This document shows positions 2,447 to 19,693 of a stretch of 26,547 bases of DNA, piece after piece. The stretch is from a virus. Both the position numbers and the translations under genes were made by a program. How positions within the stretch are numbered: the first letter of the stretch is position 1; each line of letters starts with the position of its first letter. Under the pieces are notes generated by a model. It had not been told where the DNA came from. It worked only from the letters and a program-made list of their open reading frames with translations, and ran no database searches. The stretch covers positions 1-26,547 of the IMG/VR virus record IMGVR_UViG_3300042402_001613, one strand, 5' to 3'.

Positions 2447-2453
2447 TTTGTTT

Positions 2454-2525
2454 TCCTACTTAGCTCAGCGGTAGAGCGTTCGGCTGTTAACCGAATGGTC
2501 GCTGGTTCGATCCCAGCAGTAGGAG
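2454..2525 (+). tRNA. tRNA-Asn (anticodon GTT)
   Basis: A complete cloverleaf: acceptor 2454-2460 with 2518-2524 (7 bp), D stem GCTC/GAGC (2463-2466, 2474-2477), anticodon stem TTCGG/CCGAA (2479-2483, 2491-2495) with loop CTGTTAA and anticodon GTT at 2486-2488, T stem GCTGG/CCAGC (2501-2505, 2513-2517) with loop TTCGATC, and discriminator G2525. CCA is not encoded. It starts 8 nt after the DUF3310 stop and is followed 37 nt later by the next CDS, so it is probably cut from a shared transcript. Confidence 0.95.
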
Positions 2526-2562
2526 TATAATTTCTTAACCATGGTTTAGGAGGGCATTGATC

Positions 2563-4145: not shown

Positions 4146-4226
4146 GCCCCGGTGGTGGAACGGTAGACACGACAGACTTAAAATCTGTTACCGCAAGGTG
4201 TACGGGTTCGAGTCCCGTCTGGGGCA
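4146..4226 (+). tRNA. tRNA-Leu (anticodon TAA)
   Basis: Class II tRNA with a long variable arm. The acceptor pairs 4146-4152 with 4219-4225 (one G-T), with discriminator A4226. The anticodon stem ACAGA/TCTGT has loop CTTAAAA and anticodon TAA. The variable arm carries a GCAA tetraloop, and the T stem/loop is CGGGT TCGAGTC CCGTC in register. CCA is not encoded. It decodes UUA, a Leu codon used heavily in the phage genes here. Its 3' end lies one base from the thyX Shine-Dalgarno site. Confidence 0.95.
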
Positions 4227-4236
4227 TGGAGGAAAG

Positions 4237-4884
4237 ATGGCAGCCACACTCAAGTATATTCAACCAGACGCAGAAGAATTTATGATTCATCTCGCTCGTG
4301 TGTCGTCAGAGAATGAAGATAATCCTGATTACGTCAAGCTACTTAACTATTGTATGCGTAAAGAACACTGGTCTGTGTTTCAAATGGCTGATGTTGTTAT
4401 GGAAATCTACACATCTAGGGCTATTGCTGCACAGATTTTGCGTCACAGAAGCTTCCACTTCCAAGAATTTAGTCAACGTTATGCAAATCCAAGCAAGATT
4501 GAGCTAGATTTGCCTGTTATGCGTCGTAAAGGTAGCACTAACCGTCAGAGTAGTTTACTTTTTGACGATCAAGAGACGCAATTTGAGATGGATAACAAGG
4601 CTCTTGCACCAATATTGGTTGCAATTAGAGCATATGACGACCTTGTGAAGTCAGGTGTTGCTTTAGAATCAGCAAGGATGGTGCTTCCGATGTGCGTTGG
4701 TACAAGGATGTACATGAAGGGTACTGTCAGAGACTGGTTGCATTACTGCAGAGTACGCATGGACAGCCATACACAACAGGAACATCGTGATATCGCTACC
4801 GATTGTTGGAATGTTTTATGCAAAGTACTTCCAAATACTACTCAAGCGTTTGAAAAATACCATTTAGGAGAAAAGAATGATTAA
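4237..4884 (+). CDS. thyX: Flavin-dependent thymidylate synthase ThyX
   Basis: Makes dTMP from dUMP using methylene-tetrahydrofolate, FAD and NADPH. The ThyX signature RHR-x7-S is exact (Arg69-His70-Arg71 to Ser79), followed by QRY. Other family segments are EHWSVFQM (43-50) and ARMVLPM with Arg147 (146-152). The 215-aa length is typical. The ATG at 4237 has GGAGG 4 nt upstream; the frame also extends upstream into the tRNA, which cannot be translated. Only 10 nt separate the tRNA 3' end from this start, so tRNA processing should leave a minimal leader. The stop overlaps the ssb start by 8 nt. Confidence 0.95.
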   Translation: MAATLKYIQPDAEEFMIHLARVSSENEDNPDYVKLLNYCMRKEHWSVFQMADVVMEIYTSRAIAAQILRHRSFHFQEFSQRYANPSKIELDLPVMRRKGSTNRQSSLLFDDQETQFEMDNKALAPILVAIRAYDDLVKSGVALESARMVLPMCVGTRMYMKGTVRDWLHYCRVRMDSHTQQEHRDIATDCWNVLCKVLPNTTQAFEKYHLGEKND

Positions 4885-5321: not shown

Positions 5322-5573
5322 ATGGGAGTAGTAAAGAAGTATCAAAACCCTTCTGGTGGATTAAATGCTGCTGGTCGTGCTCATTACAAGCGTACAACTG
5401 GAGCAAACTTAAAGCCACCAGCACCGCAACCTAAGACAAAGGCAGACGCAGGTCGTCGTGCCTCTTTTTGTGCCCGAATGTCTGGCATGAAAGCTAAATT
5501 AACATCATCAAAGACTGCTAATGATCCTAATAGCCGGATTAATAAATCATTGAGAGCGTGGAACTGTAAATGA
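5322..5573 (+). CDS. Small basic phage protein of the 'GGLNAAGR..YKR' type (83 aa)
   Basis: The ATG follows GAGGTG by 5 nt. The chain carries a recurring signature seen in small phage proteins (I associate it with DUF6321, from memory): PSGGLNAAGRAHYKRTTGAN (10-29), NLKPP (29-33), RRASFCARMSGM (45-56) and a C-terminal NDPNSRINKSLRAWNC. No enzymatic motif is apparent. It is strongly basic and lacks membrane segments. It is the first gene after the terminator/TATAAT pair, and its TGA overlaps the next ATG (ATGA). The function is unknown; a virion or assembly role is a guess from its position. Confidence 0.75.
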   Translation: MGVVKKYQNPSGGLNAAGRAHYKRTTGANLKPPAPQPKTKADAGRRASFCARMSGMKAKLTSSKTANDPNSRINKSLRAWNCK

Positions 5574-5776
5574 GAAAAACTATGTCCCAGATGATGGGAA
5601 TGAAAACTGGTGCTCATAAAGGTATGAGCAAATCAATGGCTTCAATGGAGAAGCGTGAATATGGAAAAAAAGGTTTGTCACCTAAGATGATGGCTAAACA
5701 TGAAAAAGCAGAATATGGTGGCGGAAAGAAATGTCCTAAATGTGGCAAGTCTAATTGTGGATGTAAAGGATACTAA
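5570..5776 (+). CDS. Met-rich small protein with a C-terminal zinc-ribbon motif (68 aa)
   Basis: The product has ten Met in 68 residues. A short repeat occurs twice (EKREYGKKG at 27-35 and EKAEYGGGK at 45-53), and a CPKCGKSNCGC motif (55-65, CxxC-x4-CxC) could bind one zinc. It is very basic. The ATG overlaps the previous TGA by two bases and has only a weak ribosome site, so reinitiation is likely. I know no family for it. Together with its neighbours it forms a group of small basic proteins ahead of the large virion-type genes. Confidence 0.7.
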   Translation: MRKTMSQMMGMKTGAHKGMSKSMASMEKREYGKKGLSPKMMAKHEKAEYGGGKKCPKCGKSNCGCKGY

Positions 5777-5778
5777 TC

Positions 5779-6432
5779 ATGGCACGTAAAACTCCTGAAG
5801 TTAGAAAAGTATTAGCTGCCGGTCGCAAGTCTGGTACGCGTATGGAAAAGCCAGTTCGTAAAAACAAGAGCTGGTCACGCGAACGATTTGGCATGGATCC
5901 AACTGTAAGCACAAGTATTAATAGTCGAAACGCACAAGTATTAGGCGCAAATCAAGGCGTAGTTAAGCAAGCACTTGCTGGAGATGAAACACAAAGACTT
6001 TCTAATCAAGTAGCTAAGATGCGCCAGCAACTTGTTAATCAACGTGCACAGCGACCACCTGTGTCAGTACAGAAAAATCCAGTAGCTGTACGACGTGCTG
6101 GTTTAATGAATGCAGCAAAAACTGGTGGATTACTAGCTGGAGCAACAGCTGTTGGCGGAATGGTTAATGACGCTATGCAGCGCAATGAAGCTGCTGTAAA
6201 TGCATCTAAATCTTTAGCACGTCAAGGTAAGCCAGATAACTTAGCATCTGCAGGTATGCGTGACGCAATGGAAGGTCAGCGACAAGGCCGTGCATTTAAT
6301 GAGCGTGGTCAGGCTACAGCTGCAAAATCAAAAGCACCTGCTGCAAAATCAGCACCAGCTAAGTCTGCTCCAGCTAAATCTGCTGCTCCAGCTAACGCAG
6401 CAAAAGTAACAAAACTTTTAATGAAGAAGTAG
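5779..6432 (+). CDS. Basic, Ala-rich, cysteine-free protein (217 aa), possible internal virion protein
   Basis: The start is supported by AAGGA about 7 nt upstream. The N-terminus is Arg/Lys-rich. A Gln/Arg helix follows, then a Gly/Ala hydrophobic stretch (GGLLAGATAVGGMV, about 116-129), and the C-terminus is a tandem AKSAP-type repeat (AKSAPAKSAPAKSAAPA) ending in LLMKK. There is no cysteine. Small, helical proteins with one Gly/Ala-rich hydrophobic patch are known among podophage ejection proteins (for example P22 gp7 and T7 gp14), but I claim only a similarity of style and position. It directly precedes the 1795-aa gene. Confidence 0.65.
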   Translation: MARKTPEVRKVLAAGRKSGTRMEKPVRKNKSWSRERFGMDPTVSTSINSRNAQVLGANQGVVKQALAGDETQRLSNQVAKMRQQLVNQRAQRPPVSVQKNPVAVRRAGLMNAAKTGGLLAGATAVGGMVNDAMQRNEAAVNASKSLARQGKPDNLASAGMRDAMEGQRQGRAFNERGQATAAKSKAPAAKSAPAKSAPAKSAAPANAAKVTKLLMKK

Positions 6433-6439
6433 GTAAACA

Positions 6440-9400
6440 ATGGCCTCAGCACTATACAACGCAATGATTGCAGCCGAAGAAGACGAAAAGAAAAAGGCTG
6501 CTCCGAAATCTGGACGTGCAAAAGCAGCAGCTACAGCTGAGGCCAAAGATCCCGGCAATACAAATGCCAAATTCACAAGAACACCTGACAAAAAACCATT
6601 AACTGGTGAGGCATCAAAATTACTTGGTGGTGAAAAATCTACAATGATGCGTGGTGAATCTACGCCATTTATGTCAGATAGTTTACGTGGTCAGGGTAGT
6701 TCTTTATTAGGTGGGCAACAATCTCCATTACTTGGAGGTGAGTCTACGCAATTATCAACGCCATTACTAGGTGGACAATCATCTCCTGTTGCAAACGTAT
6801 ATGGTCCACGTTCGGCGCAACCTAGAATGCAGGGACAATCGTCAAACTATCCTTTGACGTATGACATGGTCGAATCAATTGTTGGTCCATTATCTCCGGG
6901 TATGCGTACTAGACTTGGTGAACCCGGCATGGTTCGTGGTGAGGCTGGATCGCGAGCGGAAGGAGTTGAATTCCGTAAGCCAGCAACATTGACACCAGAA
7001 GAAGAAGCTGAAGCACAGCGAACTCAAAGCCAAGCTGATCTATACAATAAGGATTTTACACAATGGGAAAAGGAACGATTACGTCGCGAATCGCAACCTA
7101 GTGTCCAGTTAACTGGCAACATGCAACGACCGATACCGCTTGGGCCACGACCTAATGCTGCAGATTATGTCGGTCAAGGTAAAACAGGTACACCATCAGA
7201 TCCAACGGCAGTTGCACCTCCGCCAGTAAAAGCGTCTGGAATGTTTGGCAAGTTCTTAGCAAAACCAGATAGTGCAACAGATCCAAATGCACGTGCGCAA
7301 GGTATTGAAACTCGTACTGCTGATGCATTACCACGCGCAGATGTTCAAACACCTACTGATGTAATTGGTCAGAAAACAAATATTAATGCAGACGACTTTA
7401 TTGGTGGTATTGCTGGTAAAGAAGTTTCGATAATTAATTCAGCAAAACAATTTGAAAACAATATTGTTGCAGGTGTATCTCCAGCTCGTGCAGCAAAACT
7501 TATTCTTCAGTCTAAAGACTATGATGAGTCAAACCCGTTCCATGCAGCATTGCGTGTGTTTGATCAAGTTGCATCAGGGCAAGATAAGAAGCGAGCAGAA
7601 GTTGCCAAACAGGGCATAGTCGCACTTACAGACTATTTCACACGTGGTGCATCTGGTAAGTCTGGTCATAATGAGACAACATTACGATCCGCAGTAGAGT
7701 ATTTAAATCTTTCTACTATGCCGGGCATGACCGAGTCTAATGCACGTAATTCTTTTGATGAATTACTTCCTGTCATGACAGAAGAAGGAAGTCGATTACG
7801 TCAATTCTTTGGATCATCGACACAACAACAGGCAACACGCACAGCTATTAAAACAGAATCTATGGCTGGAATTGTAACTACGGCATTAAATAAAGTTTCG
7901 CGAAATGTAATTGATCGTATGCCTGATGGTAACGCTCCAGCAATGAAGTCTGCAAGAGACAGAGCGTTGCGAGTATTAGCACCGCTTACTACAGTTAATC
8001 CGGGTGAATCTGCAATTAGGTGGATGGATTCTGATCCACTTAGAAGTAACTTAGCAAACGATTTGTTGTTCGAAACACAACGTTTGATGGGTGGAGATTC
8101 TATTGCATCTATAAAAAACCTACAGGATCAAATTGAAAACGGGCGTATTGCAAGAACGTTTGGTGGGCAGTTTGATGTAAGATCTACGCTAACCCAGATT
8201 ACACAACCTAATTATGCAGGACGTGAGGCTGAGTATGTGCGCGACATGGATCTTGCTGATCAAGCAGAGGCTTCAGGAGATAAGGTTAAAGCTGCAAAAT
8301 TAGCTGCTCCATATCACACAACTGCAGCACTTCAGATGATGTATGGGACAGACGAAGTTGAAGGATACGAATCTGGAAGAGCTATTGGTGTAAGTACTGG
8401 CCTCGGTGGTAACCTCAAGTTACGTGATGCAAAATTACGGCGACAAGAAGTAATCGGTGAAATCACACGTAATCAAGAACCGCCTAAGACTAACTTAACT
8501 CCTATACAGATGTTAGGAACAGTGTTTGCTCAAAACGGTGCAGACAGAACATTACTGAAATTTGGATTGCCATTCTATGGTGGAACTGTTCAGTTTGGTG
8601 GCATGAATGAAAATGCAGGATATATCCGCAGTTATGATATTCCTAATCATCCGGGTTTACGCCTGACATTAAATGTACCTGAAGGTAAACGAAGCATTAA
8701 TCCTATTACAGGGGCTGTAATGGGGGCGGAATCTTTAGATGCATCAAACAACAAAGACATTCAAAAGATTTTAAATCAACTATCTGAATCACAAGATCCA
8801 GCGAAGATGCTTGAGAGGTCTATCCTAAAAAGCACACTAGGTCCAACTGCTGAGAAATACGAGTTTGGAATTATTGAAGCAGCTCAAGATAAAGTTGGTG
8901 CTTCAGATGATTACGCAAAGTTGATGGGTGGATATCGTAGTTATAGTACTGCTGGGGATCAAGGTAAGTTTTCAGCTGATGTAACTGCAGATATGCAATC
9001 AATGTTTAAACTACCAGTTGGTTCTGACGGTATGCCATACATTGATGATAACAGCCAGCAGTTATACGATATGGCTGTACGTGTAAAAACATCACTTGAT
9101 GAGAGTTTAGGTAACTATGTAGAAAAAGATGGTAAGTATGTTTTCTCCGGCAAGGAGAACAAACGGGAACTTCCATTAGTATTATCGCAAGAACAATACG
9201 ATTCGTTACGTGCAACGCAACAACAATTCACATCCATGGTGCGTAGTGCGGATGCAATTCGTGAGTCACTTGGTGTAACTGGTGGTGCTGTAGGATTCCG
9301 TGTTCAAAATGGAGTTCCAATATATTCGCAACCATTAGCCGTAACTGGTGACAATAGGTTTAAACAAGTATCTACAATTTTAGATGCATGGGTAAATAAA

Positions 9401-11827
9401 AAATCGGGTGCTCCAGATTTTACTAAGTTATTTGAAGGCATAGATATCCAACAAGGAGCAAAGTTTTCAAAGACTGTAATGATGTATGACGTTGATCAAA
9501 ATGGAAATCCAATTATTGACAAGCGTCATTTAAGATCATATGAAGTAAATCCAGATGGAACTGTTAACGTACGACAGTTCAAATTAACTGACCCAAAAGC
9601 AGCTGCAGGTGTGCAATCTGGTGACAAAAAAACAACAGGTGGATTTCAAGAATTTGCTGCAGATGAAGTAGCAAAACGATTACGTGGAAGTAATTTTAAA
9701 GAAGGTTATACAGAAGTTACAGCAGAAGGTGGAGCACCTCGCACGGTTTCAATGCCAGCAAATGACGTAGCAGTTACTACTGGTGTGTCAACAGAAAAAT
9801 CAAAGGCGGCATCTTCTGGACGATATGGCTTAAGTGGCGCGTATCTTTACCAGACATTTATGGCTACGCATCGTCAGATTAATGCTGGCCTTAAATTAGA
9901 TGGTGCTGCTGAATCATTTGCAAGAAGTATTTTAGGTACTAACGATAAAGACGTTATTGATAACCTAAAAGAACAAGGCATAACACCAGACCAATTAAAA
10001 ACGATTACAACCAACCTTAATCGCACTCAAGGTGCACAATTACAGATGTGGTTACAGGTATCTGATCCTGCTAAATTCACTCCAGTAGGACGTGCAGCTG
10101 GAACAATGAACGCTACATCAGATCCAAGACGCACAAGTGACGCTGTGTCTGATAGTGCAATTAGATCGGATGAGCGTACTGCAAGACGCAGTATTTCAGA
10201 CATTGTTGTAACTCGCAATGCCAATGTGTGGGATTCGGTAACTGGCTCTGCATTAAAAATGTACGAGGATGAAGGTCAATCTAGAAATTCCCAAGCCGAA
10301 CAAGTTGATCGTATTACTAAAAAGGTTTTAGAAAATGCGGTTGTTGATCCAGAACTAGATGCAGTATTTAGAAAAAATGTAAAAGCATACGTTACATCGC
10401 TCGTCTATAACGATGAAGTATCTCGAACTCCCGGTTTTGAATTTATAGCTGACCTACAAGACTTTGCTGATGAAACAGCTAGAACCAATGTAGAACAAGG
10501 TGATTACAGCACAACAAAACGAGCTGGTGCTGGAGTTACAATTGCCGATGGTCGTGGAACAGCTGCAGATAGACGGCAACGTGTCGCGCGTGGTTTCCTG
10601 CCAGCAGTACAAACATCCTTAGACATCATTAATTTTAATGAAAACAGTCAAGCTATTAAGTCTATTAAACTTGGCGGTAAACAATCTGGAGAACTGGCTT
10701 TAGTAGATACATTGCGCACTAAATATTTAAATGAAACTGATGGTGCAGCAAAACGTACAATATTTACACAGTTGTATAAAGCTGTTCAAAAGTTAGAGGC
10801 TGCTGGTTACACCATGCCAGACAGTGAAACAGCTGAATTTAGATCACCGATTGGACAACAAGGTGCATCGGTTGCAGCTGCAAGAAGCAACAAGACTCCA
10901 GCACAGTTAGCTGCAGATGAGCGCAAGCGCAAAATAATTAATGCTGCCTTAGCAAAACGTGCTGGAACAACACCTCCTCCTGATGACGCGCCAGCTAAAC
11001 GCACAGTTAAATTATCTGCTGTAGACACAAAGGGTAAACCTATTGATGTCCTACTTGATGTTGATCCAGAAGAAGTTAAATCGGGCCTACGTCGTGTTTA
11101 CAGGAAGGTGAACGGCGAGTGGGTTCCTGTAATGCAAGGCGGAAAACCAAAGATGATTCCTGCTGTAATACAGCCGGAAGAAGTTGTTGACCCGACTGTG
11201 CCAAAAGATTTAACAGTAGACACAAAAAATAGAACTGGTGTTAATATACGACGCACTGCATTACCGGCTGGGTTAACATTATTAGCTACGACAAGTAAAC
11301 GGCCAAGTACTCAACAGCACAATCAAGCACTTAATCAAGCAATTATTGGGCAAGTAGTACAAGATGTCGTAGCGCAAATCCCTAAAGATACAGATCCAAA
11401 AATTGCAATGGAACAAATATTTAGGTTAATGGCGCAATCAAATGGCCGAGATCCAAAAGAATGGAAATCATGGTTTAAGGAAATAGGACTGTCAATTGTT
11501 ACACCCAAAAACGTAGACCAGTTTAAAGCTAAGGCTGGAGAACAACATAACCTTGAGGTTATGAAGAAAGAGTTTTTACGTCTGGGTGGAACTATAGAGC
11601 AATGGAATAAAGATCTAGCGTGGGCTGACACAATTACAAAGAAAGTTGTTGGTATTTATAAACCAACAACGTCTGGAGCTAAATCTACACGTCCGGCAGC
11701 ACCTAAAGGCGGGCCAAAAGGCAAGTCAAGTAAAGGGCCAATCACTGGCACAACAGCGTTCTCATTATTAAGCTTACTTGGTGATCAGATAAGGAGGAAT
11801 GAGCAAAATGCCACAAACAAAAAATAA
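6440..11827 (+). CDS. Giant cysteine-free protein of unknown family (1795 aa), likely virion-associated
   Basis: One uninterrupted 5.4-kb frame, the largest gene here. The N-terminus is disordered and Ala/Lys-rich (1-55), followed by imperfect repeats of the form LLGG(E/Q)xS (about 56-116) and a Pro/Thr-rich linker. The central ~1300 residues look mixed and globular. A Pro/Lys-rich region lies near 1500-1540, a short hydrophobic PAGLTLLATTSK segment follows, and the tail is basic (GGPKGKSSKG, then FSLLSLLGDQ). I find no cysteine in the whole chain. I see no lysozyme, protease, methylase or polymerase motif. Size, position and composition suggest an internal or ejected virion protein; a tape measure is the alternative, but no other tail genes support it. 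Confidence 0.6.
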   Translation: MASALYNAMIAAEEDEKKKAAPKSGRAKAAATAEAKDPGNTNAKFTRTPDKKPLTGEASKLLGGEKSTMMRGESTPFMSDSLRGQGSSLLGGQQSPLLGGESTQLSTPLLGGQSSPVANVYGPRSAQPRMQGQSSNYPLTYDMVESIVGPLSPGMRTRLGEPGMVRGEAGSRAEGVEFRKPATLTPEEEAEAQRTQSQADLYNKDFTQWEKERLRRESQPSVQLTGNMQRPIPLGPRPNAADYVGQGKTGTPSDPTAVAPPPVKASGMFGKFLAKPDSATDPNARAQGIETRTADALPRADVQTPTDVIGQKTNINADDFIGGIAGKEVSIINSAKQFENNIVAGVSPARAAKLILQSKDYDESNPFHAALRVFDQVASGQDKKRAEVAKQGIVALTDYFTRGASGKSGHNETTLRSAVEYLNLSTMPGMTESNARNSFDELLPVMTEEGSRLRQFFGSSTQQQATRTAIKTESMAGIVTTALNKVSRNVIDRMPDGNAPAMKSARDRALRVLAPLTTVNPGESAIRWMDSDPLRSNLANDLLFETQRLMGGDSIASIKNLQDQIENGRIARTFGGQFDVRSTLTQITQPNYAGREAEYVRDMDLADQAEASGDKVKAAKLAAPYHTTAALQMMYGTDEVEGYESGRAIGVSTGLGGNLKLRDAKLRRQEVIGEITRNQEPPKTNLTPIQMLGTVFAQNGADRTLLKFGLPFYGGTVQFGGMNENAGYIRSYDIPNHPGLRLTLNVPEGKRSINPITGAVMGAESLDASNNKDIQKILNQLSESQDPAKMLERSILKSTLGPTAEKYEFGIIEAAQDKVGASDDYAKLMGGYRSYSTAGDQGKFSADVTADMQSMFKLPVGSDGMPYIDDNSQQLYDMAVRVKTSLDESLGNYVEKDGKYVFSGKENKRELPLVLSQEQYDSLRATQQQFTSMVRSADAIRESLGVTGGAVGFRVQNGVPIYSQPLAVTGDNRFKQVSTILDAWVNKKSGAPDFTKLFEGIDIQQGAKFSKTVMMYDVDQNGNPIIDKRHLRSYEVNPDGTVNVRQFKLTDPKAAAGVQSGDKKTTGGFQEFAADEVAKRLRGSNFKEGYTEVTAEGGAPRTVSMPANDVAVTTGVSTEKSKAASSGRYGLSGAYLYQTFMATHRQINAGLKLDGAAESFARSILGTNDKDVIDNLKEQGITPDQLKTITTNLNRTQGAQLQMWLQVSDPAKFTPVGRAAGTMNATSDPRRTSDAVSDSAIRSDERTARRSISDIVVTRNANVWDSVTGSALKMYEDEGQSRNSQAEQVDRITKKVLENAVVDPELDAVFRKNVKAYVTSLVYNDEVSRTPGFEFIADLQDFADETARTNVEQGDYSTTKRAGAGVTIADGRGTAADRRQRVARGFLPAVQTSLDIINFNENSQAIKSIKLGGKQSGELALVDTLRTKYLNETDGAAKRTIFTQLYKAVQKLEAAGYTMPDSETAEFRSPIGQQGASVAAARSNKTPAQLAADERKRKIINAALAKRAGTTPPPDDAPAKRTVKLSAVDTKGKPIDVLLDVDPEEVKSGLRRVYRKVNGEWVPVMQGGKPKMIPAVIQPEEVVDPTVPKDLTVDTKNRTGVNIRRTALPAGLTLLATTSKRPSTQQHNQALNQAIIGQVVQDVVAQIPKDTDPKIAMEQIFRLMAQSNGRDPKEWKSWFKEIGLSIVTPKNVDQFKAKAGEQHNLEVMKKEFLRLGGTIEQWNKDLAWADTITKKVVGIYKPTTSGAKSTRPAAPKGGPKGKSSKGPITGTTAFSLLSLLGDQIRRNEQNATNKK
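6605..6790 (+). repeat. Degenerate coding repeats LLGG(E/Q)xS
   Basis: Within the 1795-aa gene, residues about 56-116 contain LLGGEKST, MMRGESTP, LRGQGSS, LLGGQQSP, LLGGESTQ and LLGGQSSP, irregularly spaced. The DNA varies at third positions, so selection is on the peptide rather than recent duplication. Confidence 0.7.
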
Positions 11828-13004
11828 AACGCGAGAGCAAGAATTTACTCGTGCTCAACGCGAACAAATGATGGCTGAGTTGTTTCCATTGATGGTTGCT
11901 AGTAAGCATGCTGGTGTAAAAAGTAATACTCCATATGATCCTGTTGCTACCTATAATCAGTTTTTTAAAGGTAGTAACACAGGTAATCCAAAAAATCCGG
12001 GAACATTCAATAATAAAGAACTGGCAAAAGAAAAACTAACAGGAGAAGCATTGCATTCTGGATCCAGCATTGCTTCAACAGTACTTCCATTTCTTACATC
12101 AGCAATTAACTCGCCTGTTGTTGATGCTATTCCGGCGCCACCACTTAAGGGTGTAAAAGCCGTACGAGCAGCAGCAAATTCAGCAAAAGGGCCAGCTGCT
12201 CGTGCTGCTGGTGACGTTCCATTTTATGGTGGGTTGCGTCCGCAGGTAGCATCAGCATTTCAGTCAGAAAATCCAGATGACAGATTAAACGCATTACTCA
12301 GTTTAGCTGCAATTACAGGATTGGATTTAGCTACTGATGCAGGGGTTAGAGGTATTGGATTTTTATACAACAAAATATTTAAAACAAATATTAATCCATA
12401 TGCAATGAATGCAATGTTAGTTGCAAAAAACAACTTAATGACTCCTGCGTACGGTGCAGTGAGTCAATCTATTTATGATAACAACGCTGGACGTAAAACA
12501 GCAGAAGCAATTAAATTAGTAGACAATTTTATCAATGATGATAATTTGCAAATTGCTTACCATAACACATTGCCAATATTACAAGATATGGCTTACGGCT
12601 ATGGTAATCAGCGACCCCCAACGAATATGCAAGGTTTGGCAGCATCACGCGACCCGATGCAACGTGTGCAAAATGAAGCAGTTGCACCGATGACTGAAAT
12701 ATTACGTCCATTGACTATGACTATTCCGAAGAACTTGCCTGTTGCTAGACAAGCTGCTGATGAAAAATTAGCAGATTTAGGACGTGGCGAGCGTGGAATG
12801 ATGAAAGATATAAGTACGGTGCAAAAAGGCGTAACTAATATTGCATCTAAGTTTGGTAACGATATGCGTAAAAATTTAGGCATGGCTGCTATCAGTGCTG
12901 CTCCAGTTGTAGGTCAGGTTGCAAATGAAGTAAACAATATTGGCGACAAATTTGGAAGTGCAATGAGATCACTGTTTGGTAAATCACCATTGGCAAGGAA
13001 ATAA
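11808..13004 (+). CDS. Cysteine-free Ala-rich protein (398 aa), possible internal virion/ejection protein
   Basis: I choose the ATG at 11808, 10 nt after AGGAGG; an in-frame ATG at 11799 is only one base from that site. The gene overlaps the 1795-aa gene by 20 nt. The product starts with a charged helix (KTREQEFTRAQREQMMAELF) and has several hydrophobic, Ala-rich segments (IASTVLPFLTSAI, LNALLSLAAITGLDLA, MAAISAAPVVGQVA). It has no cysteine and ends in a basic LFGKSPLARK tail. No known domain is recognised. With the 217-aa and 1795-aa proteins it forms a three-gene set just upstream of the terminase. A membrane-interacting injected protein fits the composition but is inference. Confidence 0.6.
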   Translation: MPQTKNKTREQEFTRAQREQMMAELFPLMVASKHAGVKSNTPYDPVATYNQFFKGSNTGNPKNPGTFNNKELAKEKLTGEALHSGSSIASTVLPFLTSAINSPVVDAIPAPPLKGVKAVRAAANSAKGPAARAAGDVPFYGGLRPQVASAFQSENPDDRLNALLSLAAITGLDLATDAGVRGIGFLYNKIFKTNINPYAMNAMLVAKNNLMTPAYGAVSQSIYDNNAGRKTAEAIKLVDNFINDDNLQIAYHNTLPILQDMAYGYGNQRPPTNMQGLAASRDPMQRVQNEAVAPMTEILRPLTMTIPKNLPVARQAADEKLADLGRGERGMMKDISTVQKGVTNIASKFGNDMRKNLGMAAISAAPVVGQVANEVNNIGDKFGSAMRSLFGKSPLARK

Positions 13005-13738
13005 TGACATCCGAAATTAGAGTTCGCACATTACCTAATGGCGCACAAATGAAGCTATGCATTGCGCAAAAACGTGATGGATCAGCTTGTTCAAACATTG
13101 CAGTAAGTGGTCGTGATTACTGCAGTCATCATGGCGGGAAAGCATTAGTTGGTCCAGATAGTCCTCAGTTTAGAACTGGATTATGGACAAAACAGCGACG
13201 TAGATTTAGTCAAGTAGCCCCGACACTTTTAAGGCGCATAGACGAATTACGAGAAGACCCTGAGTTATTTTCATTACGTGATGATGCTGCATATTTGACA
13301 GCACTTATGGACGTACGTGCTGAAGCTGCAAGTAATGGCATATCAGTAGAACATTACGAAACTATTAGAGACCAAATTAAGATTTGTAAATCTGCACCAG
13401 ATGAAGAGTCATATAGTAAAGCTTTTAAACAGTTAGAAACGATGATCAATGAAGGCATCGATATATATCGTGCAAGTCAGGATGTCGTACAACTTATTGA
13501 TAAGCGAACAGAAATTGTTGAAGCTGAAGCTAGGATGATGCACACAAAAGCATATACCCTAGAAGTTGATCAGGCATATAGCCTCGCTATGCAGATATTA
13601 AAAGTCGTAAAAGATTGTGTCCGGAATGCAGATGAATTGTCTGCTATCAAAGCTGGATTTTCCAAATTACTTAAACAGTATCAACAAGAGGATGTAATTG
13701 ACGCAGAGGTAATCGATGAGCAAGACGACTCTGAGTAA
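13004..13738 (+). CDS. terS: Terminase small subunit with N-terminal zinc motif
   Basis: Recognises phage DNA and regulates the packaging motor. The N-terminus holds a compact Cys/His motif (C19-x9-C29-x10-C40-x2-H43) continuing as HHGGKALVGPDSPQFRTG. This layout (Cys motif, HGGK, GP, then a basic helix) is typical of a class of phage small terminases. The rest is helical, with charged heptad-like stretches suited to oligomerisation, and the C-terminus is very acidic (QEDVIDAEVIDEQDD). The gene overlaps the upstream stop by one base (TAATG) and overlaps the terL start by 23 nt, which supports the assignment. Confidence 0.82.
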   Translation: MTSEIRVRTLPNGAQMKLCIAQKRDGSACSNIAVSGRDYCSHHGGKALVGPDSPQFRTGLWTKQRRRFSQVAPTLLRRIDELREDPELFSLRDDAAYLTALMDVRAEAASNGISVEHYETIRDQIKICKSAPDEESYSKAFKQLETMINEGIDIYRASQDVVQLIDKRTEIVEAEARMMHTKAYTLEVDQAYSLAMQILKVVKDCVRNADELSAIKAGFSKLLKQYQQEDVIDAEVIDEQDDSE

Positions 13739-15461
13739 GGCTGCTCCTAGAGCATTTAGAAAATACGTTAAGCCGACCAAGCCACTTACCGTTGCATTAC
13801 TAGAAGCACTTGAGGATGAACTACAACAAGCAATTGAAGTTGGTGACTATGACAATGGCACTGCAAGTAAGTTGCCCGGACACGAACTTGAGTATGAGTC
13901 TTGGTTGTCAGCTTATGCACCACACGCAGCTAGTAGCAGGCTAGCTGAGCATCATCATCGTGCATGGCAATGGGCTGAATCATTAGAACCGTCTAAATCT
14001 CCAGCTGCACTAATTGAGTGTTGGTTTCGCGGTGGTGGTAAATCAACAACAATGGAATTAATTGTGAGTAGACTTGCTGTTAAAGCTACTCGCCGTTTCG
14101 TCGTGTATGTTTGTGCAACACAAGACATGGCAGATAGACACGTTCAGGACATAGCAACAGCAATGGAACGTTGTGGCATCGAACGAGCAATTAACAAGTA
14201 TGGTTTTAGTAGAGGTTGGAACGCATCTAAGTTACGTACAGCAAATGGATTCAACGTTTTAGCCTTTGGATTAGATACTGGAGCACGTGGTGTAAAGTTA
14301 GACCACCTACGTCCAGACATGATTATCTTGGATGACATTGATGAACTTGACGACTCAGTTAATGCAGTTGACAAAAAGATCAGAACTATTACACAGACTA
14401 TTCTTCCGGCAAGAAGTACTGATTGTGCTGTTGTGTTTGTTCAGAATAGAATTCACGCTAATAGTGTAATGTCACACGTACTAAGTGGTGAACTGGATAT
14501 GTTACAAAACAGAATTCAATCACCAATAGTTCCAGCAATAAAAGATTTACAGTACGACACATTTGAACGTGAAGATGGACGTGTTGGATACAAGATAACA
14601 TCGGGCACTCCTATGTGGGAACATAAGACCATAGAAGTTTGCCAGCAAGAAATCGATACTTATGGATTAATGTCGTTCTTGCGTGAGTGTCAACATGAGG
14701 TTGGCGTAGGAGGTTTATTCTTTAATACATTTAGGGAATATGCATCTGATGGTCAGCCATGGCATGTAGTTGAATCCGTAGACATTCAGCCATGGTGGCG
14801 CGTTTGGGGTAGTCACGACTTTGGCACAGGCGCACCTGCATGCTTCTTATTGTACGCAAGTGATGACAGCGAAAATGTTTACGTTATTGGTGAAATGTAT
14901 GAGCAAGGTCTTGTGAGTTCTGCGCAAGCACAACGTGTACTTGACTTGTTAGAGAAGTACAAAATGGGTGAACCGAGCAACACTAAATTGCGTGAGGGTA
15001 AATGGAATACAAAGTTGGAAGCTATTGCATTTGACTGGGCTAATACATTTCCACCTAAAAACCCAGATGAACGCATTGGTGAATATCCAGTAGAAGTGTG
15101 GTGGGAGCGTAACTTGCCAGCTGTTAGAGCAGTTAAAGACAGGAAAGCTGGATGGCGACGTGTCAAGGAATGGTTAGAAGCTACATCAGTAGTAGGTGGA
15201 GCACCTAAACCTAAGTTGCAAATTGTGCGTGGTGCATGTCCAAACCTAATTAAGCAACTTGCAAACACCATGGCACACCCAAGAGATCCAGAAGACATTG
15301 ACAGCGGAACTAAGAATGACCACGCTATTGATAGTTTTAGGTATGGAGTAATGTGGCGTGAGTTTCCAGTTACATGTCCAGAGACTGGATTAGATGGAAC
15401 ACGGAATACTAAGTATGTACCTAAATGGCTAGACAAAGGTAATAATAAAGAATGGCTTTAA
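13716..15461 (+). CDS. terL: Terminase large subunit (packaging ATPase/nuclease)
   Basis: The 581-aa DNA-packaging motor. The ATPase part has Walker A FRGGGKST (104-111) and Walker B MIILDDIDE (202-210), with a coupling-like stretch FVQNRIH (241-247). The C-terminal RNase H-like nuclease has candidate metal-binding acids at Asp368 (GSHDFGTG), Asp440 (AFDWAN) and Asp535/Asp539 (NDHAIDSFRYG), the last block being very typical of terminases. It docks on the portal encoded just downstream. A GAGGT site lies 5 nt before the ATG at 13716, inside the terS end. Length and domain order are normal. Confidence 0.95.
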   Translation: MSKTTLSKAAPRAFRKYVKPTKPLTVALLEALEDELQQAIEVGDYDNGTASKLPGHELEYESWLSAYAPHAASSRLAEHHHRAWQWAESLEPSKSPAALIECWFRGGGKSTTMELIVSRLAVKATRRFVVYVCATQDMADRHVQDIATAMERCGIERAINKYGFSRGWNASKLRTANGFNVLAFGLDTGARGVKLDHLRPDMIILDDIDELDDSVNAVDKKIRTITQTILPARSTDCAVVFVQNRIHANSVMSHVLSGELDMLQNRIQSPIVPAIKDLQYDTFEREDGRVGYKITSGTPMWEHKTIEVCQQEIDTYGLMSFLRECQHEVGVGGLFFNTFREYASDGQPWHVVESVDIQPWWRVWGSHDFGTGAPACFLLYASDDSENVYVIGEMYEQGLVSSAQAQRVLDLLEKYKMGEPSNTKLREGKWNTKLEAIAFDWANTFPPKNPDERIGEYPVEVWWERNLPAVRAVKDRKAGWRRVKEWLEATSVVGGAPKPKLQIVRGACPNLIKQLANTMAHPRDPEDIDSGTKNDHAIDSFRYGVMWREFPVTCPETGLDGTRNTKYVPKWLDKGNNKEWL

Positions 15462-15613: not shown

Positions 15614-17809
15614 ATGGATCTACGCAGCATGGTAATGCAGAGTCTGCAGGATAATCAACCTAAAGTAAGCGCATTTCAACGTAAAGACGCTACTGGCACA
15701 GTCGGCTCCTTTCCAATTAAAAGCATCGACCGAGATGACAAAAACAATTTAAAGCTTGACCTTGATAATAAGGACTGGAAAGTCAGCCCGAAAGATGATC
15801 CAGACGAAGCTAAAAAAATCACTACCTTTGTCAAAGAGCAGTTTGACATAGCCTATAGATCACGACAGGAAATGGAACTGGAGTGGGTAATGGCGACTGC
15901 GTTCTTTGAGGGTCGTCAGTGGTTGCGCATTAATAGTCAAACACGAAATTTAATTCAGTTACAGAATCCAAACGAGCCAAATAGGTATATGACTGTCAAT
16001 AAGATTAGACCGCTTATTGATGGTGTGGTTGGCAAATTAACGCAGTGTGCCCCAGATGTTACCGCTGTGCCAATTAGCCATAATCCAGTTGACCTTGCTG
16101 CTTCTGATGAAGCTAACTATTTACTAAGTCACTACAATCGAAAGTATGACCGAGAAACACAGACGAAAGAACGTGTACGTTGGGCATGTGTTTGTGGCAC
16201 TTCATACGTCAAAGTATTTTGGGATAACAACCGAGAGCAGGTTGTCCCACAAATGGATGCTACTGCACAAGAAGTTATTGGCCATACAAAGATGCGCGTT
16301 GGAGATGTTGTAGAACAAATTCTTCCAGCGTTTGATGTTTATCTTGACCCTACAGCTAAACGAGACGACGATGTTCGTTGGATGATGCATGCAATGGTCA
16401 AACCGCTTTCGTGGTTTGTTGATTCTTACGGCGAGGCTGGCAAAGCGGTTAAACCTGATGCAATGTCGGGTGTTAATAGTGGTTATGTTGATAGCTATCT
16501 TCATGGTACTAATGGATCTGGTAGAGGATGGGTTCCGCCATCTACCGCTAACTTAACTAATCAAGACACAAAGAAGATGGCTGCAGTTGTTTATGAATAC
16601 TGGGAAAAGCCATCTACTCTTTATCCTGATGGTAGATATATTGTTTCAACTAATAGTTGTTTACTTTATGCTGGCGTATGGCCATATAAAAAGAAAGACT
16701 CTTTTCCTTTTATACCTTTGCGGTGGCAACCAAGAGCTGGAACTCCTTACGGATATTCACTTGGCTTTGACTTAACTGCTCTTCAGTCTACTTATAATCG
16801 TGTCTATTCTCGACTACTTGAACAATTTGAGGGACAGAAAGATTACATTCTTGTTGAGAATTTAAGTGGAGTAGGTGCGGACGCATACGATAATAGTGGT
16901 GACGATATCGATGACAAGAATCGAATTTACCGCCGTATTAACTACATGCGTGGAAGTCATCCTCCAACTATCCAGCGAGCGCCGGGTATTGGATCAGATT
17001 TGTTCCCATTACTGCAATTTATTGAGCGAGACATGATGGATATTGCCGGATTGCATGACGTATCTCAAGGTCAGGCAGCAGCTGGTACTCCTGCTGAAGC
17101 AGTGCGATTACTACAACGTAGCGACAATACACAACACTCGTTTATCCGTGCTGATATTGAAATTAGCGCAGCAAAGATTAAAGAGTGGGAAGTATCTTTA
17201 GTTGAGCAATTTGGCATTGTTCCATTTGTTGGAAACATCCAAGGAAAGATGCTTCCGCAAGACCAGATCCGACAAGGTGTTATGCGTTTTGACGCATTGA
17301 AGTCTGGTGGACAGTTCCGTATTGTTTACATTCCGGGGTCATCAATGGAGGATAGCCCTGATCAGCGATTGCAAAAAATGGCTGCCTTACGACAGATGGG
17401 TGTGTTCGGTGACCCGACAGATCCAGAAACGAACCGACTGTTTGTTGAATTGACTAACATGCCAAATGCTTCAAGGATTTATCAACACCTTGAGGGACAG
17501 GCTCAGAAACAACAAGAGATGCAAGCACAGCAAATGATGATGATGCAACAACAACAAGCTGCTCAATCTAGTGCAAATCAATTCAACCCAGAAGCAGAAC
17601 AAATGAAAACGCAGCTTGAAATCCAGAAACGTACAACTGAGATTCAAGCGCAACTTGAAGCAGACATTGCACTTGAATCAGCTAAGGCAGGACTACAGGC
17701 TGCAGCTAATGAGGATAATGCAATTACAGATCTTGGCAAGCAACGTTTGATGCAAGCCATGCCGCCAGAAGACACTGGCAATTTTTCAGAACAAGAAGGT
17801 ATGATGTAA
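15614..17809 (+). CDS. Portal protein, P22-type
   Basis: Dodecameric ring at one capsid vertex through which DNA is pumped. The length (731 aa) is close to the P22 portal (725 aa), and the N-terminal third has the expected pattern: WVMATAFFEGRQWL (91-104), RYMTVNKIRPLIDGVVGKL (124-142), then a stretch with WACVCGTSYVKVFWD. A clip/crown-like region follows, and a glutamine/methionine-rich tail lies at about 627-656 with a helical barrel-like end (EIQKRTTEIQAQLEADIALESA). It follows terL and precedes the probable scaffold. The start at 15614 lies 4 nt after the stop of the 52-aa gene, with a weak ribosome site (GTGGGTG). Confidence 0.88.
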   Translation: MDLRSMVMQSLQDNQPKVSAFQRKDATGTVGSFPIKSIDRDDKNNLKLDLDNKDWKVSPKDDPDEAKKITTFVKEQFDIAYRSRQEMELEWVMATAFFEGRQWLRINSQTRNLIQLQNPNEPNRYMTVNKIRPLIDGVVGKLTQCAPDVTAVPISHNPVDLAASDEANYLLSHYNRKYDRETQTKERVRWACVCGTSYVKVFWDNNREQVVPQMDATAQEVIGHTKMRVGDVVEQILPAFDVYLDPTAKRDDDVRWMMHAMVKPLSWFVDSYGEAGKAVKPDAMSGVNSGYVDSYLHGTNGSGRGWVPPSTANLTNQDTKKMAAVVYEYWEKPSTLYPDGRYIVSTNSCLLYAGVWPYKKKDSFPFIPLRWQPRAGTPYGYSLGFDLTALQSTYNRVYSRLLEQFEGQKDYILVENLSGVGADAYDNSGDDIDDKNRIYRRINYMRGSHPPTIQRAPGIGSDLFPLLQFIERDMMDIAGLHDVSQGQAAAGTPAEAVRLLQRSDNTQHSFIRADIEISAAKIKEWEVSLVEQFGIVPFVGNIQGKMLPQDQIRQGVMRFDALKSGGQFRIVYIPGSSMEDSPDQRLQKMAALRQMGVFGDPTDPETNRLFVELTNMPNASRIYQHLEGQAQKQQEMQAQQMMMMQQQQAAQSSANQFNPEAEQMKTQLEIQKRTTEIQAQLEADIALESAKAGLQAAANEDNAITDLGKQRLMQAMPPEDTGNFSEQEGMM

Positions 17810-18670
17810 ATGTCCGAAGAGATGGTGACACGAACCGCTGACTCGCCAGCAGCGGCAACGGGCAATGTTGGTGGAGCGTTAATGGATTTTGTTCGGGATG
17901 CCGCCGATTCCGATAGCTTTGATAACCGGGCGTTAAACACACAGAGCGAGTCAGTAGACGCAGTTGATAACAATGAATATGTTGATGCATTTCAAGATCG
18001 AGATATTCAAAGTGTTGTCAAACAAAAACTATTAGATACTGTTGCTCCAGAGCAACCATCTAATGTTCCGTATGAACGATTTCGTGAAGTTAATGAAGAA
18101 GCGAAAGCTTTAAAGCAACAGCAAGAAGCGTTTAGCCGGTGGGCTGATGTAATAAATCAGTTTGAAAATAGCGGTTTCAAATCTGCAGCTGATGTTCAAA
18201 AGGCATTACAGCAACAGGAAATTGCTAAACAAGAACAGGCCATTCGTAATAGGTGGAGTGAGAAAATCTCTACTGAATACATGGACCCTGATGCTGCAAA
18301 TGCATATGCCGAAGCTGAAGTAAATAAGTTCCGGTATGACCAAGTTGTATCTCAAATGAACAACTATATGGTCACTCAACAAAGAGTTGAGGCATTTGAG
18401 CAATTCCCATATGCACGTCGAGCAGAAGATGTAGTCGACCAATTAATCCAGTCAGGTATTGCCCCAACTGAAGCAGCTAGGGCAGTGCACAATCAAGTAC
18501 AAGGATTAGTTGAATCACTCGTCCCAGAATTGCTCGATCTTGTAAATGAACGACGAACAGTACCAACACCAATTGATACGAGTTCTTCAGCACAACCAGT
18601 AGTACAGCCCCAGCAACCACAGCGAAATGCGTTATCAGGAATAACGCGATTGCTAGGTATTGGGCGTTAG
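17810..18670 (+). CDS. Probable capsid scaffolding protein
   Basis: A 286-aa, acidic, helical, cysteine-free protein between portal and capsid, where scaffolds are usually found. The N-terminus is low-complexity and acidic. A segment VPYERFREVNEEAKALKQQQ (about 85-104) is the kind of motif common in phage scaffolds, followed by long charged coiled-coil stretches. The C-terminus is Gln/Pro-rich and ends in a basic LLGIGR, suited to bind the capsid inner face. No protease motif is seen. The start directly abuts the portal stop; a second in-frame ATG 12 nt later is possible. Assigned from composition, motif and position. Confidence 0.72.
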   Translation: MSEEMVTRTADSPAAATGNVGGALMDFVRDAADSDSFDNRALNTQSESVDAVDNNEYVDAFQDRDIQSVVKQKLLDTVAPEQPSNVPYERFREVNEEAKALKQQQEAFSRWADVINQFENSGFKSAADVQKALQQQEIAKQEQAIRNRWSEKISTEYMDPDAANAYAEAEVNKFRYDQVVSQMNNYMVTQQRVEAFEQFPYARRAEDVVDQLIQSGIAPTEAARAVHNQVQGLVESLVPELLDLVNERRTVPTPIDTSSSAQPVVQPQQPQRNALSGITRLLGIGR

Positions 18671-18679
18671 GAGTAACCA

Positions 18680-19693
18680 ATGGCTATCGATTTTAACGGT
18701 GCACTTACACTCGCAGATCAAGCTGTCCTTTCAAACGATCCTCTTGTAAAAGAAATCACCATGTCCCTGCACCAGACATGGAACGCAATCAAGGACATCC
18801 CTTTCTACACATCGCCTTCTTTACGACAGGTTGGTGTTCGCTATACGAATGAAGCTGGCACAATCCCAATGCCGACGTGGTCTACCATTAACGGTGAACC
18901 AAACGCTGTCAAGGGTAAGCCAAAGTCGTACGAAGAGCAAATGTATCTCATCCGTAATAAGATTACGGTTGACTCCCGTTTGCTTGATCAGCCAAACAAC
19001 ATCATTGATCCTGTAGAAGCACAGATCAAGATTTTCCTAGAGGGTTTTGCGTATGATTTTAATGACAAGTTCATTAATAACGATCCAACCTCTCTTACGG
19101 CTGGTAATAGCCCAGATTGTTTTCCCGGATTGCGTTACCGTTTAGAGAATCGTGCAGCATTTGATATTCCACAAGACTGTCTTATTGCACCAGCATCTAC
19201 AGCTGCATCTCTTGACACAACCTCTTCTTACAATGCTCTGGAAGCTAACGGAACGATGTCTGCACTTCAGGAAATGTTTGATAACTTAAACGCACCTGAT
19301 GGAACTGGCATTGTTTTATACATGAACGAAGAAACAAAGCGTCGATTTGAGTTTGTCATTCGCGCACTTGGATCTGGTACTGGTTTTGATGCTAACAAGG
19401 ATGCATTCGACCGCAATGTTGAATCGTTTAAGGGAGCTAAGATTCGTACCGTTGGGCGTAAGGTTGATGGCTCTACGCCAGTTATTAGTGCTCCTACTAA
19501 CTTTGCTGATATTTACGCAGTCCGTTATGGAACTGGCTACGTACAGGGTTGGCAATCTGGACCATTCAAACCTGAGTACTTAGGCAAGTCAAAAGAAAAT
19601 GGCATTATGCATAACGTTCTCTTTGACTGGGGTATGGGTCTCTGGATGCCTAACACACGTTCTATCGCACGTTTACGTTTGGCTACAAACTAA
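18680..19693 (+). CDS. Major capsid protein
   Basis: A 337-aa protein placed after the scaffold and led by a good ribosome site (AGGAG, 7 nt before the ATG). The C-terminal half has features of phage capsid proteins of the HK97 fold: a long helix-and-strand run (MNEETKRRFEFVIRALG), a segment describing a target surface (YAVRYGTGYVQGWQSG) and LFDWGMGLWMPNTRSIARLR at the end. I recognise the general type but not the exact subfamily. Codon choice differs from its neighbours: Leu is mostly CTT/CTC/CTG instead of TTA, and many codons end in C, as expected for the most highly expressed gene. Confidence 0.85.
   Translation: MAIDFNGALTLADQAVLSNDPLVKEITMSLHQTWNAIKDIPFYTSPSLRQVGVRYTNEAGTIPMPTWSTINGEPNAVKGKPKSYEEQMYLIRNKITVDSRLLDQPNNIIDPVEAQIKIFLEGFAYDFNDKFINNDPTSLTAGNSPDCFPGLRYRLENRAAFDIPQDCLIAPASTAASLDTTSSYNALEANGTMSALQEMFDNLNAPDGTGIVLYMNEETKRRFEFVIRALGSGTGFDANKDAFDRNVESFKGAKIRTVGRKVDGSTPVISAPTNFADIYAVRYGTGYVQGWQSGPFKPEYLGKSKENGIMHNVLFDWGMGLWMPNTRSIARLRLATN

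Follow-up and report, generated by a model that had tools for sequence, protein, structure and literature searches.

The known proteins closest in kind to the one reported here are the ejection proteins of short-tailed phages, namely N4 gp50, T7 gp15 and gp16, P22 gp7, gp16 and gp20, and phiKMV gp36 and gp37. These are very long, contain no cysteine and, in known cases, are packaged with the DNA and injected. The N4-like vRNAP has been argued to lack cysteine so as to be injected (PMC3915230), a link noted also in PMC4837373; a literature search on cysteine and ejection, in which subscription papers were thinly covered, returned N4-like papers only. In P22, the scaffold is required for incorporation of the ejection proteins (PMC12005531).

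We counted cysteines in annotated phage genomes for known ejected proteins and scaffolds. None is present in T7 gp15 (747 aa) and gp16 (1,318 aa), P22 gp7, gp20 and gp16, N4 vRNAP (gp50, 3,500 aa), gp51 and gp52, P-SSP7 gp15 and gp16, phiKMV gp35–gp37, or lambda gpH. T7 gp14 has one, and epsilon15 gp14–gp17 have one or two each. In crAss001, gp45 has two, gp46 none, gp47 one in 2,341 aa and gp49 one in 1,349 aa. The crAss001 cargo proteins (gp45, gp46, gp47, gp49 and gp50) are large and helical, are stored in the head and are thought to be partly unfolded on ejection; they are strongly depleted in cysteine (0–2 per protein, with gp50 judged from a partial sequence) but not strictly free of it. 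Their genes follow the ring and tail genes, unlike that of the protein described here, and three are related to RNA polymerases. Zero or near-zero cysteine is an empirical mark of ejection proteins rather than a formal definition, and the protein described below carries this mark.

The scaffolds T7 gp9, P22 gp8, N4 gp57 and phiKMV gp31 are Cys-free as well, and zero cysteine thus marks procapsid-internal proteins, not ejection alone. P22 gp8 and other scaffolds have a C-terminal coat-binding region and are required for ejection proteins to enter the procapsid. At the expected scaffold position, between the portal and coat genes, Roseobacter phage CRP-9 encodes a 1,395-aa protein with one cysteine (L226:26039-30226) and Rhizobium phage RHph_N3_13 a 679-aa Cys-free protein.

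A 1,795-residue protein without cysteine

The DNA analysed here (the window) is a 26,547-nucleotide, 26.5-kb fragment of a viral genome (IMG/VR record IMGVR_UViG_3300042402_001613). Its largest gene encodes, as the original prediction held, a 1,795-residue protein without cysteine (Table 1). The remaining genes of the window have a mean cysteine content of 0.98%, at which the binomial probability of finding none in this protein is about 2e-8; the expectation that such an absence would seldom arise by chance is borne out, and the absence is conserved at low sequence identity (see below). The protein is basic, with a net charge of +21, and consists of a low-complexity N-terminal region (residues ~1–290), a mostly helical core (residues 290–1480), which also lacks cysteine, and a low-complexity C-terminal region.

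Table 1 Features of the window around the 1,795-aa gene.
Feature	Position	Strand	Basis or remark
tRNA-Asn (gtt), before the cassette	2453..2526		
Cys-free basic gene, 160 aa	2557..3039		
Cys-free basic gene, 128 aa	3247..3633		weak DUF5872 match
tRNA-Leu (taa), before the cassette	4146..4226		
thyX-like gene, before the cassette	4198..4884		
DUF6321 gene, 2 Cys; left boundary of the cassette, kept in relatives	5322..5573	+	DUF6321 match, E 9e-26
68-aa Met/Lys-rich protein, CxxC pairs (4 Cys), SQMMGMK motif; left edge of the cassette	5570..5776	+	
217-aa Cys-free, strongly basic protein, same block	5779..6432	+	
1,795-aa Cys-free protein	6440..11827	+	ATG start; longest ORF in the window
Conserved N-terminal peptide MASALYNAMIAAEEDEKKK	6440..6496	+	homologues: MASALMNMMxDEEKK
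C-terminal tail (...TTAFSLLSLLGDQIRRNEQNATNKK), site of the shared tag in relatives	11729..11824	+	
401-aa Cys-free partner gene, overlaps the end of the 1,795-aa gene	11799..13004	+	
Small terminase-like gene (terS), 5 Cys; right boundary of the cassette	13004..13738	+	weak phrog_10899 match, E 9e-4; position
Large terminase (terL)	13716..15461	+	phrog_38, E 1e-30
Portal protein	15614..17809	+	phrog_156, E 2e-43
Putative scaffold, 286 aa, Cys-free, ends NALSGITRLLGIGR	17810..18670	+	position, composition, no Cys
Major capsid protein, epsilon15 gp7-like	18680..19693	+	phrog_212, E 7e-29; NCBIfam E 3e-18, below cut-off

The protein had been described as having no recognisable domain, and this holds for every library searched: neither Pfam, NCBIfam nor PDB sequence profiles gave a significant match, PHROGs gave none that was meaningful, and a protein-level search of 50,697 phage records gave no match. 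A single-subunit RNA polymerase domain was found neither in Pfam, NCBIfam or PDB sequences nor, with confidence, by fold comparison of the core. Profile comparison with the ejection proteins of T7, P22, N4, P-SSP7, crAss001, phiKMV and epsilon15 gave a best E value of 0.055 (1.7 bits); unrelated podoviruses need not show such similarity, but the protein cannot be placed in a named family. A membrane pore is not favoured, as transmembrane prediction found no segment reaching the usual hydropathy threshold.

An AlphaFold model of residues 290–1480, built from 18 sequences, has a mean pLDDT of 66 and is made mostly of helices with a small β part. Its PDB matches are weak helical-bundle matches within the chance range for helical models; one of them, to a pre-ejectosome chain of cyanophage A4, spans 66 residues (Z 5.7) and is not relied on here. 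The sole confident match in the structure libraries is A0A6J5NHX9 (1,378 aa; Foldseek E 1e-18, 15% identity), an 'uncharacterized' protein of an uncultured Caudovirales phage with no function or name, which is probably a deposited member of the same family. The model of the 401-aa partner was unusable (pLDDT 34).

The protein differs from the N4, T7, P22 and phiKMV ejection proteins in several respects: its gene lies before terS, it has no detectable sequence similarity to them, it is basic and has no predicted membrane segment, and neither a polymerase nor a lysozyme domain is recognised in it.

A variable cassette of cysteine-free genes before terS

Scans of IMG/VR with the 1,795-aa protein, the portal and terL returned about 140 related loci. 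The closest copy, 94% identical, lies on a 66,565-bp contig (L149, the 66.5-kb relative). All 22 family members from loci long enough to judge have zero cysteine (1,329–1,795 aa, window copy included, with local identity down to ~23% and some members near-identical to each other). The homologues also retain the start (MAS...), and the best-conserved stretches of the family include the N terminus (MASALMNMMxDEEKK) and portions of the helical core. A search for the host through terL in genome contigs confirmed none.

The gene lies upstream of terS and terL, as originally stated, with the 401-aa gene intervening before terS. Because the 217-, 401- and 286-aa neighbours are also Cys-free, zero cysteine belongs to a gene block and not to one protein. 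This block, or cassette, lies between the DUF6321 gene and terS, and its gene set differs among relatives: several small genes, or a single gene for 728–803, 1,373–1,795 or 2,178 aa. Many relatives are without the 1,795-aa protein, which is therefore not essential to the phage type. Nearly all cassette genes are Cys-free, and the flanking genes on both sides keep cysteine; the exception is a 60–73-aa Met/Lys-rich protein with four cysteines at the left edge, encoded by very small ORFs. The two upstream Cys-free basic genes in Table 1 may be outlying cargo.

In 13 contigs of 52–67 kb, for which ORFs of at least 120 aa were counted, the cassette amounts to 40 proteins and 22,965 aa with no cysteine. 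In the same contigs, cysteine makes up 1.96% of the early genes, 1.64% of terL, 1.55% of terS, 0.57% of the portal and 0.63% of the capsid protein, and the putative scaffold is Cys-free in 13 of 13 (0 in 3,691 aa). A non-redundant cassette set of 36,651 aa likewise contains none, the other genes of those genomes having 0.86%.

Tryptophan and histidine are also scarce in the cassette, though not zero (0.25 and 0.37 times the controls), and valine, isoleucine and tyrosine are reduced, so part of the bias may reflect a general low-complexity, basic composition. Carried further, this would make the lack of cysteine a side effect of a composition that is low-complexity, basic and rich in Met, Ala and Gln, and it would be uninformative on location. 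We consider this very improbable: scaled to the tryptophan deficit, 36,651 aa should still contain some 130 cysteines, yet none is observed; the folded core of the 1,795-aa protein is Cys-free; and in one relative a non-homologous 2,178-aa Cys-free replacement (L113:1833-8369, +) has 27 tryptophans and 43 histidines.

A cassette protein of one relative, 510 aa long and Cys-free (L157:12520-14052, −), contains a 3D (peptidoglycan-hydrolase-type) domain (E 1e-10), which suits a virion-borne entry protein. The cassette of this relative also carries the non-homologous 2,178-aa Cys-free protein in place of the 1,795-aa gene.

Shared C-terminal tails, some with the scaffold motif

Cassette proteins within one genome often end alike. 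In one relative (L096), proteins of 112, 260, 145, 419 and 1,408 aa, seemingly unrelated in their bodies, all finish with variants of LLGIGxAGSAMxxKKR, and in another (L122) three finish with variants of QSKxSKLMGVxxKK. Among in-genome pairs of cassette proteins, 37 of 197 have a C-terminal 30-mer score of at least 30, compared with 3 when mid-protein 30-mers are taken and 5 when N-terminal ones are; these counts are raised by relatedness within the clade, and in at least one tail-sharing pair (L109, 217 and 184 aa) the homology extends past the tail. We defined a strict motif, [LM][LM]G[IVLM] within the last 35 residues. It occurs in 20 of 20 non-redundant scaffold tails, 18 of 96 cassette proteins, none of 15 post-tail proteins and 5 of 410 Cys-containing controls (cassette versus controls, Fisher p 4e-10; shuffles, mean 0.7 and maximum 4), counts that relatedness within the clade inflates likewise. 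The same motif (SMSKLMGV, LSMRKLLGIEQKEHG) is carried by very small Met/Lys-rich proteins, among them the 68-aa protein of the window, and occurs in 26 of 55 non-redundant small cassette ORFs; its density there is 5.3 per 1,000 aa, compared with 0.17 for early genes.

Three homologues of the 1,795-aa protein (L085, L086 and L099) carry the strict motif, the first two ending in TQLLGIAPALYTTQKKEK and ATLLGIGKALYETQKKDN. The window protein itself ends FSLLSLLGDQIRRNEQNATNKK, near the strict motif but outside it, which counts against reading it as cargo. Tentatively, and with the odds somewhat against it, the tails could be transferable packaging tags that copy the capsid- or portal-binding C terminus of the scaffold, such that a Cys-free protein acquiring one would be loaded into the head and injected; imitation of that C terminus would be a simple loading route.

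The main rival to internal cargo is an assembly protein, that is, an accessory scaffold or core that enters the procapsid but exits or is broken down before the DNA is packaged, without ever being injected. The scaffolds of this clade and of T7, P22, N4 and phiKMV are Cys-free, the LLGI/LMGV C-terminal motif of the scaffold is shared by some cassette proteins, and the cassette adjoins the terminase, portal and scaffold genes, all of which would fit. However, the scaffold likeness of the cassette proteins is limited to this short motif, and the window has its own gene in the scaffold position, as do 13 of 13 genomes, where a separate, conserved, Cys-free gene fills the interval between portal and capsid. 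The cassette ranges in content and size from a handful of small genes up to 2,178 aa, unlike a core part of assembly, and one cassette protein has a cell-wall-hydrolase-type 3D domain. We judge an assembly-only role unlikely.

A second cysteine-free module after the tail genes

In the 66.5-kb relative, the tail genes are followed by genes for proteins of ~150, 252, 640 and 4,534 aa, the last three without cysteine. Across complete relatives, the post-tail Cys-free proteins measure about 250–600, 550–730 and 3,000–4,500 aa, with the endolysin next in most; the giant proteins of three relatives have 1 to 3 cysteines. In the 13 contigs, this block has 7 cysteines in 55,996 aa (0.013%). The same block encodes long Cys-free proteins in those cultured phages that gave the nearest annotated terL matches. 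The module has the place and order of T7 gp14–gp16 and appears to supply the usual ejectosome. No SLT lysozyme domain was found in the 66.5-kb relative. Its 4,534-aa protein (L149:1483-15087, −) has no recognised domain and holds an HExxH motif, THEMFHPLF, which may mark a metallopeptidase.

With the canonical position already filled, the window protein would be extra cargo. A diverged equivalent of T7 gp15/gp16 or P22 gp16/gp20 relocated upstream of terS would have its size, helical core and zero cysteine, but complete relatives already have Cys-free proteins in the post-tail position, profile search gave no similarity to known ejectosome proteins, and no transmembrane segment is predicted; a canonical ejectosome subunit is thus quite improbable. 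Profile search also gave no homology between the 1,795-aa and 4,534-aa proteins. The 1,795-aa gene lies outside the post-tail block, which is the usual, not the required, place for ejection proteins. T7 gp6.7 (88 aa, one cysteine) and gp7.3 (99 aa, none), which are far shorter than 1,795 aa and to which no similarity was found, are virion proteins that are ejected, and their genes lie upstream of that for the portal, apart from gp14–gp16, so gene position is not decisive.

The original prediction had argued from this position against a normal tape measure, and the relatives agree. They have a podovirus-type layout, an epsilon15-like capsid protein and a P22-like portal, with Cys-free genes of ejection type after the tail genes; no tube, terminator or tape measure gene was recognised in them, which is weak evidence in phages so divergent. 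A tape measure would likewise be long, helical and Cys-free, as lambda gpH is, but the firm position before terS, the range in length (1,329 to 1,795 aa) and the absence or replacement of the gene in sister genomes with the same structural genes, together with the short-tail layout, make this reading extremely improbable.

Discussion

We propose, at a probability of about two in three, that the 1,795-aa protein is a clade-specific internal cargo of the virion of a short-tailed phage, loaded with or via the scaffold and extruded through the short tail. Packaging, ejection and mechanism are read here from the absence of cysteine, its conservation, the gene layout and the shared tails. The protein would belong to a variable block of Cys-free cargo genes reaching from the DUF6321 gene to terS. 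The shared C-terminal tails suggest that the scaffold accompanies the protein into the procapsid or carries it there, and the protein would then remain in the head with the DNA. At infection, the strict absence of cysteine suggests extrusion, at least partly unfolded, via the portal and short tail; cysteine would be kept out because a disulphide bond or a reactive thiol would impede threading or leave the chain stuck in the oxidising periplasm. The protein would supplement, not replace, the ejection proteins at the canonical position. After ejection, it could act as a DNA-bound or cytoplasmic protein or as part of a periplasmic conduit. The lack of a predicted membrane segment and the net charge of +21 make a cargo travelling with the DNA likelier than a membrane channel.

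That a Cys-free chain of this length would unfold and pass through a channel had been part of the original prediction. The match with the Cys-free ejected proteins of T7, P22, N4, phiKMV and lambda favours it, and the Cys-free scaffolds weaken it as a sign of ejection; passage through a channel, as opposed to a tape measure role, is the best-supported reading of the sequences and extends to the whole cassette. The post-tail module and the shared tails were out of view of that prediction because the window is a fragment.

The link between the lack of cysteine and injection is already published for the N4-like vRNAP; we found no report of the cassette or the shared tag, a weak negative given the thin coverage of subscription papers. 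An old remark on one protein, the Cys-free N4 vRNAP, thus becomes a testable rule: in this phage group, strict absence of cysteine singles out two gene blocks by sequence, one in the canonical place and another that was not expected. Should the shared tails act as packaging signals, the cassette would show by what route phages acquire new injected proteins, and the tails would offer a simple tag whose ability to load proteins into phage heads can be tested. The region before terS would then be an evolving locus for swapping cargo, and a natural protein-delivery system readable from sequence alone.
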